Origin: Roseivirga ehrenbergii
GTDB taxonomy: Bacteria; Bacteroidota; Bacteroidia; Cytophagales; Cyclobacteriaceae
Direction of reading: 5' to 3'
Assembly (NCBI RefSeq): GCF_001593005.1
Contig: NZ_LQZQ01000051.1
Span: 124,001 to 188,000, forward strand
Length of the DNA stretch: 64,000 bases
The position numbers and the translations under genes are program-made. The notes under the pieces were generated by a model. It had not been told where the DNA came from, made no database searches, and was given only the letters and a program-made list of their open reading frames with translations. Positions 712 through 5,220 of this stretch are shown here, piece by piece (within the stretch, counting starts at the first letter, position 1; each line of letters begins with the position of its first letter).

Positions 712-738
712 AAACAGTTTCAAAAGAGAAGCTATACA

Positions 739-859
739 CTGTAGGGTGATGAAACAGGCAGCCATGCCCTCCTTTCTCGAGGGTGGAGAAAAAGAAATAA
801 ATCTGAACTACCTGACGACTAATCTCTCCGTGAAGGTTCGACTCCTTCCCCTACAGCCA
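739..859 (+). ncRNA. tRNA-like structured RNA with an overlong variable region, unrecognised
   Basis: This gene-free stretch folds as an unusual cloverleaf. The acceptor-like stem CTGTAGGG (739-746) pairs over 8 bp with CCCTACAG (849-856), followed directly by an encoded CCA (857-859). A Leu-tRNA-like D arm has stem ATG/CAT (749-751/763-765) and loop AAACAGGCAGC. The anticodon-like arm CCCTC/GAGGG (767-771/779-783) has the 7-nt loop CTTTCTC. A 48-nt variable region (784-831) is closed by GGAGA/TCTCC (785-789/825-829). The T arm is canonical, GAAGG-TTCGACT-CCTTC (832-848). CAGGCAG (755-761) and CTACCTG (808-814) could pair with one mismatch as a pseudoknot. A -7 promoter lies upstream and a strong terminator downstream. 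The nominal anticodon would be TTC, but the variable region is far longer than in any standard tRNA. It could be a divergent tRNA or tmRNA-like molecule, or a known Bacteroidota RNA I do not recognise. Confidence 0.6.
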
Positions 860-912
860 TTCACATTGAATATTAGTTTGGAAACGTATTCAGTTTGTTT
901 TTTCTTAGATTG

Positions 913-988: not shown

Positions 989-2665
989 ATGAGTACTTTC
1001 CCCTGGATTGCGCATTACCCAAAGGGTGTTCCCGCAGAAATTGAAGATCAACGTCCTAAAAACCTTCTAGAACTTTATCAAAACGCCTTTAATCAGTTTG
1101 GCAGCCGCGAGGCTTTCGAGAACATGGGCGGAGTGCTTACTTTTCAGGAGGTAGATCAGCTTTCGACCAACTTTGCGGCCTATTTGCAAAATGAATTAGG
1201 CATGGTAAAAGGAGATAGAATAGCTATCCAAATGCCCAATTGTTTGCAATACCCTGTGGTGCTGATTGGTGCTATTAAAGCGGGTTGCACTGTGGTTAAT
1301 ACAAATCCGCTGTATACACATCGCGAAATGGAGCATCAGTTTAATGATGCTGGCATAAAAGCCATTGTGATTATGGCCAATTTCGCCAAAAGTTTAGAGG
1401 AGGCAATGCCAAATCTTTCTGTTGAAAATATCATTGTTACCGAACTGGGCGATATGCTTGGAGGCCTGAAAGGTAAGATTGTCAATTTTGTGGTGAAGCA
1501 CATTAAGAAGATGGTGCCTGCATTTAAACTTCCTAACACAACTTCTTTCAAGAGTGCTATGGCAAAGGGTGCTCGAATGAAATACACCAAACCAGAAATT
1601 GAAAGTGATGATATTGCCTTTCTTCAATATACTGGTGGAACTACAGGTGTATCGAAAGGCGCTATGCTTTCTCATGATAATGTAGTGGCTCATACACTTA
1701 TTATTACCCGAGTTTTTACACCGCTTTTAAAGAAAGGCCAAAAAGACATTATGATTACGGCCATTCCGCTCTATCATATTTTTGCGCTAAATGTGAACTG
1801 CACATTTATGATGCATATTGGCGCTAAAAACGTGCTAATTACTAACCCGCGCGATATGCCAGGTTTTGTCAAGGAATTAAAGAAACATCCGTTTACTTTA
1901 TTTACAGGCGTTAATACACTATTTAATGGATTGCTGAATCAGCCTAATTTTAAGGAAATTGATTTTACACATTTGAAGGTTTCGATAGGAGGAGGAATGG
2001 CAGTTCAGGATTTTGTAGCTAATAAATGGCAAGAAGTGACAGGGACACCCTTGGTACAAGGTTACGGCCTGAGTGAAACCTCTCCGGTGATTTGTGTGAA
2101 CCCATTAGATGGCACTCATAAAATGGGTTCTATTGGTTTACCTGTCCCTTCTACTGAATTGGCAATTTTCGATGATGAGGGAAACCGCTTAGCGCAAGGA
2201 GAAACGGGAGAAATTTGTGTTAAAGGGCCACAAGTGATGTCGGGCTATTGGAATAAAGACAACGAAGGGGTATTCTTTGAAGGAGGCTATTTCAAAACTG
2301 GAGACATCGGTATAATGGATGAAGAAGGTTTCTTCAAAATTGTAGATCGTAAAAAGGATATGATTAACGTTTCGGGTTTCAATGTATATCCAAACGATGT
2401 TGAAAATGCCATTGCCGACCATCCAAAAGTGTTAGAAGTGGCGGTTATCGGAGTTCCTGACCCACATTCAACCGAGTGTGTGAAGGCTTTTATTGTAAAA
2501 TCTGATCCGTCACTTACCGAAGAAGAGTTACGCGATTATTGTCATGAAAACCTAACAGGCTACAAGCGCCCGAAACATTATGAGTTCAGAACTGAACTAC
2601 CGAAAAGCAATGTGGGTAAAATCTTAAGAAGAAAGTTGAAAGAAGAAGAGGAGGCTAATACTTAA
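989..2665 (+). CDS. fadD: Long-chain acyl-CoA synthetase (AMP-forming)
   Basis: A 558-residue ANL-superfamily enzyme. It activates fatty acids with ATP and CoA to acyl-CoA, feeding beta-oxidation or lipid synthesis at the cytoplasmic face of the membrane. Seen: the AMP-binding P-loop YTGGTTGVSKGAM (about 214-226), the acyl-adenylate motif GYGLSETSP (about 354-362), GDIG followed by the hinge VDRKKDMINVSGFNVYP (about 434-472), and the C-terminal GKILRRKL with the catalytic lysine. The length fits FadD of other bacteria (about 560). It stands alone with its own promoter. Its stop codon overlaps by 4 nt the convergent abortive-infection gene, and no terminator is visible between them. Specificity for long chains is inferred from overall similarity to FadD. 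Confidence 0.93.
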   Translation: MSTFPWIAHYPKGVPAEIEDQRPKNLLELYQNAFNQFGSREAFENMGGVLTFQEVDQLSTNFAAYLQNELGMVKGDRIAIQMPNCLQYPVVLIGAIKAGCTVVNTNPLYTHREMEHQFNDAGIKAIVIMANFAKSLEEAMPNLSVENIIVTELGDMLGGLKGKIVNFVVKHIKKMVPAFKLPNTTSFKSAMAKGARMKYTKPEIESDDIAFLQYTGGTTGVSKGAMLSHDNVVAHTLIITRVFTPLLKKGQKDIMITAIPLYHIFALNVNCTFMMHIGAKNVLITNPRDMPGFVKELKKHPFTLFTGVNTLFNGLLNQPNFKEIDFTHLKVSIGGGMAVQDFVANKWQEVTGTPLVQGYGLSETSPVICVNPLDGTHKMGSIGLPVPSTELAIFDDEGNRLAQGETGEICVKGPQVMSGYWNKDNEGVFFEGGYFKTGDIGIMDEEGFFKIVDRKKDMINVSGFNVYPNDVENAIADHPKVLEVAVIGVPDPHSTECVKAFIVKSDPSLTEEELRDYCHENLTGYKRPKHYEFRTELPKSNVGKILRRKLKEEEEANT

Positions 2666-3753
2666 TAAGGCATGAGGTTTTCCAATTCTTCAAAAGCATA
2701 AAAGGTGGTTTCGTTTAGCCAACTTTCGTCTTTGTCAGGATAGGCCTTTTTGAGTTCTTTTTTATATTTTACTTGAGGTTCAATTGCAAAATCTACCAAA
2801 TGAAGTGGGAGGTTTTTAATCAATTTATAGTCGATTAGATAACGTGCTTCGTATCCAGTTTTTTCATCTCTGTCGAACCACATTCTTTTACCAGGCCCCC
2901 ATAGTGAGTTCAAGTATAGTAATGCTTGTTCAAAGTTAGAGAGTTGGGCACGTAAGACTTTAATATAGTTTTTCTTTTCAGAAACAGAGAGTTCATGGTT
3001 TGAGTGAACAAACTTAAGTATCTGATAAATATGACGATAATAATGTCCTAGGTTGGAAGACTGTCCTTGAAAAGGCGTGTAATTGAAGCGAAGGTTTGGT
3101 GTGTTGGCAAAATAGTATTGGAGTGGGTCGGTACCTAGAGGGGGGTAATAATCCTTTCCCCATCTTATAGCAGCAGATTTTATTAGTTCTAAAACAAATT
3201 CATCAATCAGATAAGGTCCTTTGTGATTACGTTCAGAGTATTTTGAAGTTGTTTTGTTGGTAATACCAAAAAAGAAAAGTTCATAGGCTTGTTCTGATAT
3301 GTCTTCCTTGTCTAGTTTGTCCAGTTTATTTTTCGATGCGTTGACGATATCAATAATTGTATAGATTCCCGCGTATTCTTTAAGAAATGACTCAAAGCAG
3401 ACTCGACCTTTTTTATCTGTATCGGTAATTTCAATTTCATTCACATTCTCTTTGTGAAGCCTCAAAAGCTCATAAAACTTATTTTCAAAACGTTCACGCC
3501 TGATGTCTTCTCGCTGGCTTTGATTCGCTTCGAACTGAACCCAAAAGGCTAAGAAAGTTAAGATCACCCCCATAGTTCCTATAAATGGGCTAGCTAATCC
3601 TCCAATGGTGTCCCCAATACTACCCGCAGTGCTAGCTGATGTTGGGTCAAGTTTAATTGAGAGAGCAATAATGTATGTGATTATGAAAATGGCTGCAATG
3701 ACATAGAGAGAGCCTAGTATGATCTTGAATTCCCGCTGACTTTTGATTTTCAT
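2662..3753 (-). CDS. Putative phage abortive infection protein (putAbiC-like) with two membrane segments
   Basis: A 363-residue protein from the ATG at 3753; a GTG at 3777 would add eight residues. Two hydrophobic helices lie near the N-terminus (ILGSLYVIAAIFIITYIIAL and, further on, FIGTMGVILTFLAFWVQF). A soluble domain follows, with a C-terminal signature of a conserved HYYRHIYQILKFV segment and LRAQLSNFEQALLYLNSL. This layout matches the putative phage abortive infection family related to lactococcal AbiC, which is thought to arrest infected cells. The mechanism of that family is not well established. The gene is divergent from the AbiD/F-like gene, with about 320 bp between the start codons, and converges on the acyl-CoA ligase gene. 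The two Abi genes probably form a defence island; cooperation is an inference. Confidence 0.72.
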   Translation of the reverse strand: MKIKSQREFKIILGSLYVIAAIFIITYIIALSIKLDPTSASTAGSIGDTIGGLASPFIGTMGVILTFLAFWVQFEANQSQREDIRRERFENKFYELLRLHKENVNEIEITDTDKKGRVCFESFLKEYAGIYTIIDIVNASKNKLDKLDKEDISEQAYELFFFGITNKTTSKYSERNHKGPYLIDEFVLELIKSAAIRWGKDYYPPLGTDPLQYYFANTPNLRFNYTPFQGQSSNLGHYYRHIYQILKFVHSNHELSVSEKKNYIKVLRAQLSNFEQALLYLNSLWGPGKRMWFDRDEKTGYEARYLIDYKLIKNLPLHLVDFAIEPQVKYKKELKKAYPDKDESWLNETTFYAFEELENLMPY

Positions 3754-3982
3754 GTTCAATATGAAATGTTTAAGCACAAATTAACCTGTTTATTTCAAAG
3801 TTTATTTGTTTATATCTTACTATGCGTTAGATTATAAGTTAAACAATCACGTATGCTGTATGGCTGTAGAGAAAATGAATAGTTGGCTTTATTATCAGAA
3901 GGATACTGAAATAGACTTTAGAAAAAATATAGAAATAAGTGACCCGTTTCTGTTGGCTTTACGTACATTTGTATTAACAGTA

Positions 3983-4021
3983 CTCGCCACGCTACCCATT
4001 AGAACAGCGTCCCAGGGCGAG
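3983..4021 (+). ncRNA. Stable hairpin upstream of the AbiD/F-like gene, candidate Abi-associated ncRNA
   Basis: CTCGCC (3983-3988) pairs with GGCGAG (4016-4021). Directly inside, ACGCT (3989-3993) pairs with AGCGT (4006-4010), leaving a CCCAG bulge and a 12-nt loop. The structure is far more GC-rich than its surroundings and sits 52 nt before the AbiD/F-like start codon. A 10-nt direct repeat GTTGGCTTTA occurs at 3882-3891 and 3952-3961. A conserved RNA motif named abiF, upstream of abiF genes, has been described, and HEPN/RNA pairs of this kind have been proposed as toxin-antitoxin or defence modules. That this hairpin belongs to that motif is my inference; the ends of the RNA are unknown. 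The rest of 3778-4072 shows no convincing gene. Confidence 0.5.
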
Positions 4022-4072
4022 TCTTTTGCTTTTATAGCTCCTCTGTTTTGTCTTTAAATCAAATTTTTTCTC

Positions 4073-4984
4073 ATGATTTACGACAAGTCTCCCATTACTA
4101 TTGAAGAACAAATTAGTAAACTCCAGAATCGAGGAATGATTTTTAATGACGTTTCTTTAGCACATAGGGCTCTTTCGCATATCAGTTATTACAGAATGGT
4201 CGGGTATTGGTGGCCTATGTATGAGGATAAAGAAAACCACATTTTTAAGCCGAATACAGTATTTGAAGATGTAGTCGCCCTTTATAATTTTGATCACGAA
4301 CTCAGGATTCTCTTGTTCGATATGATCGAAAAAATTGAGATAAGCTTAAGAACTAAACTGATCTACCACTTATCTCATGAGTTTGATCCTTGGTGGTTTC
4401 AAAACACTGATTTGTTTCAGGATAGCTTATCGTTGATAAAAACGCTTTCAAGTATTCAGGAAGAAGTGGAAAGGTCTAAGGATACTTTTATTAAAGAACA
4501 TAACAGAAAATACAAGGATGATAAACGTTTTCCGCCTGCATGGAAAACACTAGAGATGACCAGCTTTGGAAGCTTATCCAAATTGTATGGTAACCTAAAG
4601 AATAATATTAAATCGAAAGATGCTATAGCCGAAGATTATGGTGCGGTAAACCATACGTATTTACCCAGTTGGTTACAGTCGATGGCTCAAATCAGAAATT
4701 ACTGTGCACACCATAGTAGGCTTTGGAATAAAAATTTACCCGGAGCTCCAAAGCTTTTGCCAAAACCACCTAATCCATGGTTGTCTGAAGTTCCCAAGCA
4801 GCATGAGTTTCAAAAACTCTATATACATATGTGTTTGATGAAGTATATGTTAAATGTAATTCAGCCCAATAATAGATTTACAGAAAGACTTGCACTTTTA
4901 ATGAGTGAATACCGAAGTGTGGATCCTAATGCTTTAGGCTTTAAGGTGGGATGGGAAGAAGAACCATTATGGAGGCGACTTTGA
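4073..4984 (+). CDS. AbiD/AbiF-like abortive infection protein (Abi_2 family, HEPN-type)
   Basis: A 303-residue protein typical in length for Abi_2. The N-terminus has the family pattern around YDKSPITIEEQISKLQNRGM and LSHISYYRMVGYWWP. The centre contains YNFDHELRILLFDMIEKIE. The C-terminal part has RNYCAHHSRLWN, which includes the RxxxxH motif of HEPN ribonuclease domains (R208-H213). HEPN proteins of this group are thought to be RNases or RNA-binding toxins that act in phage exclusion or control of DNA uptake. An upstream hairpin RNA candidate and a divergent putAbiC gene accompany it. A perfect 10-bp inverted repeat (4981-5009) covers its stop codon. Its end lies 71 bp from the 3' end of tRNA-Arg, a common site for island insertion. 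Confidence 0.82.
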   Translation: MIYDKSPITIEEQISKLQNRGMIFNDVSLAHRALSHISYYRMVGYWWPMYEDKENHIFKPNTVFEDVVALYNFDHELRILLFDMIEKIEISLRTKLIYHLSHEFDPWWFQNTDLFQDSLSLIKTLSSIQEEVERSKDTFIKEHNRKYKDDKRFPPAWKTLEMTSFGSLSKLYGNLKNNIKSKDAIAEDYGAVNHTYLPSWLQSMAQIRNYCAHHSRLWNKNLPGAPKLLPKPPNPWLSEVPKQHEFQKLYIHMCLMKYMLNVIQPNNRFTERLALLMSEYRSVDPNALGFKVGWEEEPLWRRL

Positions 4985-5009
4985 CAACATAAGAACGGAA
5001 TGTTGTCAA
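4981..5009. repeat. Perfect inverted repeat over the AbiD/F-like stop codon
   Basis: TTGACAACAT (4981-4990) and ATGTTGTCAA (5000-5009) are exact reverse complements with a 9-nt spacer. The TGA stop codon of the Abi gene lies inside the left arm. No T-run follows, so it is more likely an mRNA 3' hairpin or an insertion-related repeat than a classical terminator. Confidence 0.6.
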
Positions 5010-5017
5010 GAAGACAT

Positions 5018-5052
5018 AAAAAAAGCCTTATTGGATTTCCAATAAGGCTTTT
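5018..5052 (-). terminator. Terminator of tRNA-Arg, also usable by the Abi gene
   Basis: AAAAGCCTTATTGG (5021-5034) and CCAATAAGGCTTTT (5039-5052) form a perfect 14-bp stem with a 4-nt loop. Read leftward it is followed by seven T, ending transcription just past the tRNA 3' end. Read rightward it has only four T, so it may terminate the Abi transcript more weakly. Confidence 0.85.
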
Positions 5053-5055
5053 AAG

Positions 5056-5129
5056 TGATCCCTTCAGGAATCGAACCTGAAACCTACTGCTTAGAAGGCA
5101 GTTGCTCTATCCAATTGAGCTAAGGGACC
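5056..5129 (-). tRNA. tRNA-Arg (anticodon TCT)
   Basis: The reverse strand gives a canonical 74-nt cloverleaf. The acceptor is GGTCCCT paired with AGGGATC, the D arm GCTCAATTGGATAGAGC, the anticodon arm ACTGC-CTTCTAA-GCAGT (anticodon TCT at 5095-5093, reading AGA), and the T arm TCAGG-TTCGATT-CCTGA. The discriminator is A and CCA is not encoded. The promoter lies at 5244-5251. The tRNA is preceded by two modified copies of its own 5' region (5133-5220) and followed by a strong terminator. Its 3' side borders the Abi island. Confidence 0.97.
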
Positions 5130-5132
5130 GTT

Positions 5133-5220
5133 GTGTCGCTCTATCCCCCCGACACTGCGGGGGAGCTAAGGGACCGTTAAGTTGCTCTATCCTTCCGAAG
5201 TTTCGGAAGAGCTAAGACCC
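5133..5220 (-). repeat. Two tRNA-5'-half mimics in the tRNA-Arg leader, each with a hairpin replacing the D loop
   Basis: The tRNA-Arg 5' segment (acceptor strand plus D arm) is repeated twice upstream in the transcript. Copy 1 (5133-5178) has GCTCTATCC and GAGCTAAGGGACCGTT flanking a CCCCC/GGGGG hairpin with loop GACACTGC. Copy 2 (5181-5220) has GTTGCTCTATCC and GAGCTAAGACC flanking the perfect stem TTCCGAA/TTCGGAA. In the intact tRNA (5101-5132) the same flanks enclose the normal D loop. Neither copy includes anticodon or T arms, so they are not tRNA pseudogenes in the usual sense. The flanks are nearly identical while the inserts differ completely. The origin could be slippage duplication or remnants of insertions at the tRNA gene. 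Confidence 0.8.

Follow-up and report, generated by a model that had tools for sequence, protein, structure and literature searches.

We analysed a stretch of 64,000 nt from the genome of Roseivirga ehrenbergii (contig NZ_LQZQ01000051.1, positions 124,001 to 188,000 of the forward strand), called the window in the following, and found next to a tRNA-Arg gene a locus (3964-4984) that very probably encodes an AbiF-type toxin together with an RNA antitoxin. The locus comprises a promoter-like box, a candidate RNA antitoxin of 63 nt that resembles AbiFr (3976-4038, + strand) and an AbiF/AbiD-type Abi_2 HEPN protein of 303 amino acids, the candidate toxin (4073-4984, + strand). The type III-like kind of toxin-antitoxin (TA) system is already known; the RNA is not catalogued by Rfam. 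The wider finding is that RNAs of this family occur without the toxin gene in viral genomes, where, judging from sequence comparison, they are probably phage-encoded antitoxin mimics.

The Abi_2 open reading frame (ORF) matched the Pfam family Abi_2 with an E-value of 2.4e-57 (194.7 bits vs a curated cut-off of 25.6) and the PADLOC model AbiD with 8.1e-78, and PbAbiF (PDB 8vz6) was matched over residues 9-301 (E 3.4e-59). The R-x4-H motif of HEPN proteins is present as RNYCAH at residues 208-213, which align with RNSCCH of 8vz6 (R210/H215 of PbAbiF), and in an alignment of 10 sequences, among them the window protein, R208 and H213 did not vary. A PbAbiF double mutant at the corresponding residues is described as inactive (PMC12373285). 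The same source describes AbiF of Clostridioides difficile as toxic; the RNA encoded upstream of it, RCd22, binds the protein directly and thereby neutralises it both in cis and in trans. It is because of this homology and of the anatomy of the locus that we read it as AbiF with an RNA antitoxin.

The RNA consists of two stems, an outer one of 7 bp and an inner one of 5 bp, which stack on their 5' sides, of a 12-nt apical loop ACCCAUUAGAAC, a 5-nt 3' bulge (CCCAG) and a U-rich tail CUUUUGCUUUUAUA. Its ends are those of the covariance model (CM) R1, which matched it with 94.1 bits, the window sequence having been included when R1 was built. An earlier, sequence-only reading of this DNA had claimed a hairpin-forming spacer, which was correct for a part of it: the spacer as a whole folded no better than shuffles (z -0.48), whereas the 47-nt core hairpin had a z of -3.72, with 1 of 200 shuffles as good, and recurs in other genomes. 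Covariation was determined on alignment A7, in which 51 RNAs from bacteria and viruses are fitted to the model. In this set 96.4% of the cells were paired, 11 of the 12 pairs showed changes in both partners (8.7 on average in shuffles, of which 30 of 500 reached this value) and 125 cells carried double changes, compared with a shuffle mean of 27.7 (0/500); the covariation score was 0.610 vs 0.183 +/- 0.016 for shuffles (0/500) and 0.039 to 0.149 for slid alignments. The apical loop was strongly conserved across the model-found set; in the recurring copies its consensus is about WHCCRUNNGAWC (by eye), and the bulge on the 3' side has about 5 nt. In the Rfam searches no family was matched by the RNA. 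It is a real, strongly covarying structured RNA that is uncatalogued in Rfam.

The box TANNTTTG (3964-3971, + strand) lies 4 nt 5' of the RNA and has the form TACATTTG, which we take to be the Bacteroidetes-type -7 promoter element; no -33 element was evident at the usual spacing from it. The RNA ends 34 nt before the Abi_2 ORF. In the mechanism that we propose, transcription from a promoter directly 5' of the hairpin would yield a short RNA and, by read-through, the Abi_2 mRNA. By homology to PbAbiF/AbiFr and C. difficile AbiF/RCd22, the RNA would bind the HEPN RNase AbiF and keep it inactive. AbiF would be freed when a phage infects the cell or the RNA is lost, and would then cut RNA and stop growth before phages are released. 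A protein partner of the toxin was also considered and rejected; an 83-amino-acid ORF in the spacer had no Pfam match and overlaps the RNA.

The RNA recurs 5' of Abi_2 genes in the genomes G009, G038 and G019, and in a diverged form in G012. A survey of the order with R1 over 291 genomes gave matches in 28 (E <= 0.01), of which 22 were retained after the sequences had been read; the six dropped matches (G052, G132, G144, G273, G290 and G299) looked by eye like terminators or, for G132, like a degraded copy, and in one retained genome (G160) the stems are kept and the loop is different. The RNA lay directly 5' of Abi_2 in 11 of the 22 retained genomes. Seen from the protein, 24 genomes of the order were positive for Abi_2, and an RNA match stood beside Abi_2 in 14 of them (E <= 0.0024), with one more marginal case (G253, E 0.05). 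A search of plasmids gave one weak partial RNA match (E 0.06).

A larger set was obtained by scanning genome contigs with an exact pattern for the core of one subtype of the RNA, subtype A, which returned at least 118 stretches with at least 119 copies; the counts of bacterial copies given here and below are among the matches listed. By title, nearly all of these stretches belong to Bacteroidota and a few to Chlorobi or Ignavibacteriae. In 87 of the 119 copies an Abi_2 domain (E <= 0.01) starts within 100 nt downstream (median 36); 28 further copies are solo and 4 are cut by an end. Among the 87 paired copies, Abi_2 was matched with E <= 1e-5 in 82 and over at least 200 positions of the hidden Markov model in 66. 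Since the pattern fixes the loop and the inner stem, conservation of the pattern-found copies was judged on free positions only: all five pattern-free stem pairs were formed in 83/87 paired and 25/28 solo copies, realised as AU, UA, CG, GC and UG. A T-rich tail follows the hairpin in 107 of the 115 paired or solo copies. Relative to the RNA core, the promoter box had the same position in 68 of 87 paired and 17 of 28 solo copies; with any spacing within 45 nt it was present in 75 and 20, respectively, compared with about 0.025 expected per window of that size; the promoter assignment is drawn from the sequence of these boxes (TANNTTTG, 75/87 paired copies). A structured RNA directly 5' of a toxin gene in conserved linkage, the arrangement of type III-like TA systems, was found in the form of these 87 copies and of the covarying stems. 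As a side observation, two hairpin subtypes stand in tandem before one Abi_2 gene in L075 (1501-1641) and L107, the second type being assigned by eye, which recalls the two abiF motifs of RCd22.

That the Abi_2 locus of the window has decayed into an inactive remnant we consider very improbable. Abi_2 is missing from the genomes of the closest sisters, G014 and G005, and elsewhere the gene does decay: where the downstream sequence covered 1150 nt or more, Abi_2 was near full length in 64 of 77 paired copies and truncated in 13; the window, however, has a full-length ORF with an intact HEPN motif, together with the promoter box and the RNA.

Solo copies of the RNA occur in bacteria and in viruses. 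In Roseivirga echinicomitans (G014) no Abi_2 match was found in the genome and no recognisable remnant near the RNA. Its RNA differs from that of the window at 2 of the first 61 positions, compared with 98 of 222 fourfold sites (44%) in the adjoining ligase gene (binomial P 4e-13), which shows that the RNA has been under constraint since the two genomes split. This constraint may have acted before or after toxin loss, between which the comparison cannot tell. Other solo RNAs lie inside or beside type I restriction genes (L169, L182, L196, which is cut downstream, L198, L153 and L097; by eye), which suggests that AbiF modules were often nested in type I restriction operons and then lost, and some are followed by apparent start fragments of Abi_2 (by eye). 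Because of these restriction-gene settings and start fragments, some solo copies are taken as leftovers of lost toxins. In a single genome of Sphingobacterium phlebotomi (L152, L176 and L183) three solo RNAs were seen, each near a NUDIX hydrolase ORF by eye.

In IMG/VR, 76 stretches with the RNA were found. They fall into three subtypes (A, T and C) and 19 clusters (tblastx > 100 bits; the contigs are mostly fragments and partly near-duplicates), and none had an adjoining Abi_2 gene. Subtype A accounted for 37 stretches (33 solo, 4 cut, 0 paired) and subtypes T and C for 26 + 13 (36 solo, 3 cut, 0 paired), so that 0 of 69 uncut viral copies adjoined Abi_2, 7 more being cut. Compared with the 87 paired and 28 solo bacterial copies, the difference is pronounced (Fisher P 2e-16, for stretches that are not independent of each other). 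Abi_2 (PF07751) was absent from all 37 subtype-A records, which are possibly fragments, four of them having 168-174 kb. Like the Racr RNA anti-CRISPRs, these are solitary copies of a defence RNA in phage genomes without the effector, in records that may be fragments. A reversed-pattern control for subtype A gave 0 viral matches. Abi_2 itself does occur in the viral collections: a protein-led scan found 37 loci, with an R1 match (E <= 0.1) just upstream in 8. A fourth subtype pattern gave 3 viral stretches, which were inspected by eye and do not count among the 76.

Phage hallmarks in the stretches include portal genes (L283, L305, L318, L321, L325 and L347) and terminase genes (L292, L305 and L335), and some other stretches carry genes for DNA polymerase, primase, helicase, ribonucleotide reductase or RNA ligase. 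From some of the clusters, 40 selected proteins were scanned against PHROG, and 15 of these had no match at E <= 1e-5. The portal protein of L321 matched 132 phage records, including Bacteroides, Flavobacterium, Cellulophaga and crAss-like phages, the best-scoring record being a cyanobacterial (Leptolyngbya) phage with 31%; for the polymerase of L281 the same Leptolyngbya phage came first, followed by gut phages. A comparison of 5.8 kb of L285 showed 75% DNA identity to the Flavobacterium phage immuto over 9% of this length, and a 525-amino-acid protein of L303 had remote matches only. These relationships would fit Bacteroidota as hosts of the RNA-bearing phages.

The viral copies differ from the bacterial ones in setting and detail. 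In subtype A, 17 of 37 copies lie behind a tRNA gene on the same strand, in 16 of these the RNA starts 0-2 nt after the tRNA, and 15 of the 17 have another tRNA within 300 nt downstream; 7 other copies have a downstream tRNA only and 13 no tRNA called nearby. A T-rich tail was found in 6 of 37 subtype-A viral copies, compared with 107 of 115 uncut bacterial copies, and the promoter box in 1 of 37. The stems were kept by re-pairing: the free outer pairs were all formed in 31 of 36 testable subtype-A copies, and at column 10 UA stands in 18 of 25 distinct viral RNAs, compared with CG in 90 of 93 distinct bacterial RNAs. Among the copies of subtypes T and C a single one has a tRNA nearby, and many of the T copies lie behind a gene and end in a T run. 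Because of the re-paired stems, the lost tails and boxes and the tRNA contexts, the phages appear to keep the AbiF-associated fold in stems and expression settings of their own. In five phage stretches of subtype A (L286, L287, L298, L304 and L308) the hairpin is directly followed by another, different one of the same loop type, with the loop AACCRTAAGAAC; the same test gave no such case among the 119 bacterial copies or in 1850 shuffles. The second hairpin is perhaps aimed at a second AbiF subtype. Two further observations concern the surroundings. In phage tRNA arrays a tmRNA gene (ARAGORN) was found near the solo RNA (L312, 841-1227; L315, 7105-7491), and in five related viral contigs (L342, L346, L350, L351 and L352) the subtype-C solo RNA is framed by a short direct repeat, ATATGAAGATT (by eye).

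Two other readings of the hairpin were considered. According to the first, the hairpin would be a cis-acting leader or attenuator of the Abi_2 mRNA, a terminator with its U-tail, and not a free antitoxin. The T-rich tail of the bacterial copies, the distance of no more than 100 nt between a paired hairpin and the start of Abi_2 and the T run at the end of viral subtype T, behind a gene, would agree with this, but the hairpin occurs without adjoining Abi_2 in 28 bacterial and in all 69 uncut viral copies, and most viral copies of subtype A have no T-rich tail. The loop, which an attenuator could dispense with, is strongly conserved in the model-found set, and RCd22 is described as active in trans (PMC12373285). 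We therefore regard an attenuator as improbable. According to the second, the phage copies would serve phage RNA processing, termination or stability, and AbiF would have borrowed a common hairpin of phages or hosts. The copies placed right or shortly behind the 3' end of a same-strand tRNA (17 of 37, 15 of them with a further tRNA within 300 nt) and the terminator-like T run of subtype T behind a gene point in this direction; however, the contexts vary among the clusters, from tRNA arrays to positions behind coding genes, and yet the AbiF-associated loop recurs, and the steady neighbour of the RNA in bacteria is Abi_2. A role in phage RNA processing is possible, if doubtful.

The reading to which we incline, with modest confidence, is that Bacteroidota phages carry solo AbiF antitoxin RNAs, often in tRNA arrays and processed with the tRNAs, as anti-AbiF decoys that disarm the HEPN toxin, and that bacterial solo copies such as that of R. 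echinicomitans are immunity (anti-addiction) RNAs against incoming AbiF elements. The analogy with RNA anti-CRISPRs suggests a decoy antitoxin as the simplest reading of the phage copies, which would most likely act in trans and hold a putative host AbiF inactive. A DNA region of phage sk1 reportedly protects another phage from AbiF (Rince et al. 2000). No report of phage-encoded AbiF antitoxin RNAs was found among the listed titles and abstract openings of the open-access literature, outside of which Zilberzwige-Tal et al. 2025 falls.

Several observations weigh against the TA and decoy readings. The Rfam abiF motif RF03085 had no match at E <= 1 in the R. ehrenbergii genome, nor in any of 14 control genomes, and the putative identity of the RNA with AbiFr is derived from its position and its partner. 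No RNA match was found beside Abi_2 in 9 of the 24 Abi_2-positive genomes of the order, three of which have remote Abi_2 members only (E about 1e-6 to 1e-8) while several others have different hairpins by eye, and 28 of 119 bacterial copies have no adjoining Abi_2. The core patterns, which fix the inner stem, the loop and part of the bulge, enrich for the loop by construction, and the matches listed for the bacterial scan are all close copies. A blastn search of the phage collection with the RNA gave no match, and 0 of 6 named phages had a convincing copy; four of the six had weak matches to R2, eight in all with a best E of 0.001, and by eye none of these showed the loop. Expression, RNA binding, toxicity and a phage trigger are presumed for the locus of the window by analogy with the related systems.

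Next to the TA locus lies a second Abi-like gene, which the sequence-only reading had joined with it into one compact island. The ORF at 2662-3777 (- strand, GTG start, 371 amino acids) matched Pfam putAbiC with 6.5e-19, above the family cut-off, and had weak PADLOC matches to AbiP (6.7e-10) and AbiC (1.3e-8). Its structural model (mean predicted local distance difference test score 82) has a long helix at 48-114 and a helical C-terminal part, the N-terminal helices being hydrophobic by eye, and no match in the PDB was found by sequence, nor by fold at E <= 0.001. The putAbiC-like and AbiD/F-like ORFs are indeed divergent around a spacer, which has 295 nt (Pfam 6.5e-19 and 2.4e-57), and the locus does adjoin the 3' end of the tRNA-Arg gene, at 70 bases from the Abi_2 stop. 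Conserved co-occurrence of the two genes was, however, at chance level: among 59 relatives searched at the protein level, 12 had putAbiC, 7 had Abi_2 and 1, the window genome, had both, and family models applied to 291 genomes of the order found Abi_2 in 24, putAbiC in 23 and both in 2, with 1.9 expected by chance. In the second of these genomes the two genes are on different contigs, so that in both samples they are side by side in the window genome alone. In the scans, the neighbour of the RNA was Abi_2 and not putAbiC. In G014 the RNA begins 84 nt past the ligase stop with no putAbiC between, and the putAbiC gene of that genome is inside a separate, repeat-bounded element.

It is thus hardly credible that putAbiC and Abi_2 are two halves of one defence system, for instance a sensor and an effector that are controlled from one divergent regulatory region, even though both are defence-like, diverge from one spacer and a putAbiC homologue (40% identity) is found inside the G014 element at the same tRNA. 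We regard the putAbiC gene as a separate neighbour that occupies this tRNA-Arg hotspot independently of the TA locus. Comparison resolved the supposed island into two modules with separate histories, and what remains of the proposed system is a defence locus at a tRNA-Arg hotspot with a real spacer RNA. The same genes in the same order are not a general feature of the relatives, the pair being absent from the other 18 of 19 genomes of the genus. A role of the locus in the control of DNA uptake, which had also been proposed, was set aside, there being no evidence either way.

The locus is flanked by housekeeping genes, as had been stated before: an acyl-CoA ligase gene (AMP-binding, Pfam; 989-2665) on one side and, beyond the tRNA gene, an aldo/keto reductase gene (Pfam) on the other. 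The tRNA-Arg(tct) gene (5055-5129, - strand; ARAGORN, Rfam tRNA) is separated from Abi_2 by an interval with a symmetric hairpin and a T run (5021-5052, no strand assigned), a 15-nt inverted repeat with 100% complementarity, for which a terminator-like site was predicted on the - strand. Ligase and reductase genes are close to each other on one contig in 4 of 19 genomes of the genus, with intervals of 2.7 kb in the window, 18.7 kb in G014, 11.9 kb in G005 and 9.7 kb in G006. In R. echinicomitans the interval holds a 16.3-kb element at tRNA-Arg (L064, 2307-18642), at whose far end 35 nt of the 3' end of tRNA-Arg are repeated (94% alike), so that the two copies bound it. Its cargo comprises HsdR, HsdS, HsdM, putAbiC and a protein that matches integrase SAM-like domains, in which the catalytic domain was unmatched at E <= 0.001. 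The G005 interval contains HsdR and an AAA ATPase (scanned) as well as HsdM and HsdS (by eye), and that of G006 genes of alpha-glucan enzymes (by eye alone). Because the defence cargo differs between sister species and the G014 element is bounded by repeats, the tRNA-Arg site is regarded as a defence hotspot. In the window the 3' end of tRNA-Arg occurs once, and none of the ORFs from the ligase to the tRNA gene is integrase-like; for these reasons its locus is cargo at an attachment site rather than a self-mobile island.

Other tRNA-related sequences were seen around the locus. At 734-860 (+ strand) of the window lies a tRNA-like RNA with a 7-bp acceptor stem, a T arm, an anticodon-like loop CTTTCTC, a long variable arm and 3' GCCA, for which ARAGORN made no call and no Rfam family was matched; similar sequences stand upstream of the ligase gene in 9 of 18 other loci of the genus, in 1-3 copies each. 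At 5130-5220 (- strand) there are two "half tRNA" copies, consisting of the acceptor 5' strand and D arm of the adjoining tRNA-Arg with a palindrome in place of the D loop. The exact pattern had 5 matches in 3 of 19 genomes of the genus, always at the tRNA-Arg locus, and a similar unit was seen by eye beside another tRNA in L024.

The core locus very probably belongs to the known kind of AbiF systems with RNA antitoxins, and its RNA family is absent from Rfam. Among its closest counterparts is PbAbiF/AbiFr of Prevotellaceae (PDB 8vz6; Zilberzwige-Tal et al. 2025), which is from the same phylum and has a full-length homologous HEPN toxin and an RNA antitoxin partner; the window protein is about 36% identical to it. 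AbiFr is described in PMC12737573 and PMC12373285. C. difficile AbiF/RCd22 likewise pairs an Abi_2 toxin with an upstream RNA, which, according to PMC12373285, has its own promoter, is read through into the toxin gene and acts in cis and in trans. There RCd22 comprises two abiF motifs (RF03085) and a separate terminator, whereas the window has one hairpin that RF03085 does not match and whose own U-tail may serve as terminator. The lactococcal systems AbiF and AbiD1 differ in being from Bacillota, and AbiD1 is described as controlled by a phage protein acting on the 5' untranslated region of AbiD1. Phage PhiTE reportedly escapes the type III TA system ToxIN with a pseudo-ToxI, a mimic of the RNA antitoxin; this mimic arose in selected escape mutants, whereas the RNA described here is found in many phage clusters and would be directed against AbiF. 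A further counterpart is provided by the Racr RNA anti-CRISPRs (PMC10651486), where a structured RNA of a host defence system is likewise encoded by phages in solitary copies; Racr mimics CRISPR repeats, as was shown experimentally, whereas here an AbiF antitoxin would be mimicked, with a function proposed from sequence and context.

In more than 100 candidate antitoxin RNAs the loop is strict while the stems covary freely, which suggests which bases are read by the protein. Since AbiF is described as ancestral to Cas13 (PMC12737573 and PMC12373285), the RNA recognised by AbiF bears on the origin of RNA-guided enzymes. If the phage copies are decoys, they would explain some of the non-tRNA hairpins in phage tRNA arrays, and RNA mimicry as a means of counter-defence would extend from CRISPR to RNA-antitoxin systems, in many clusters of phages.

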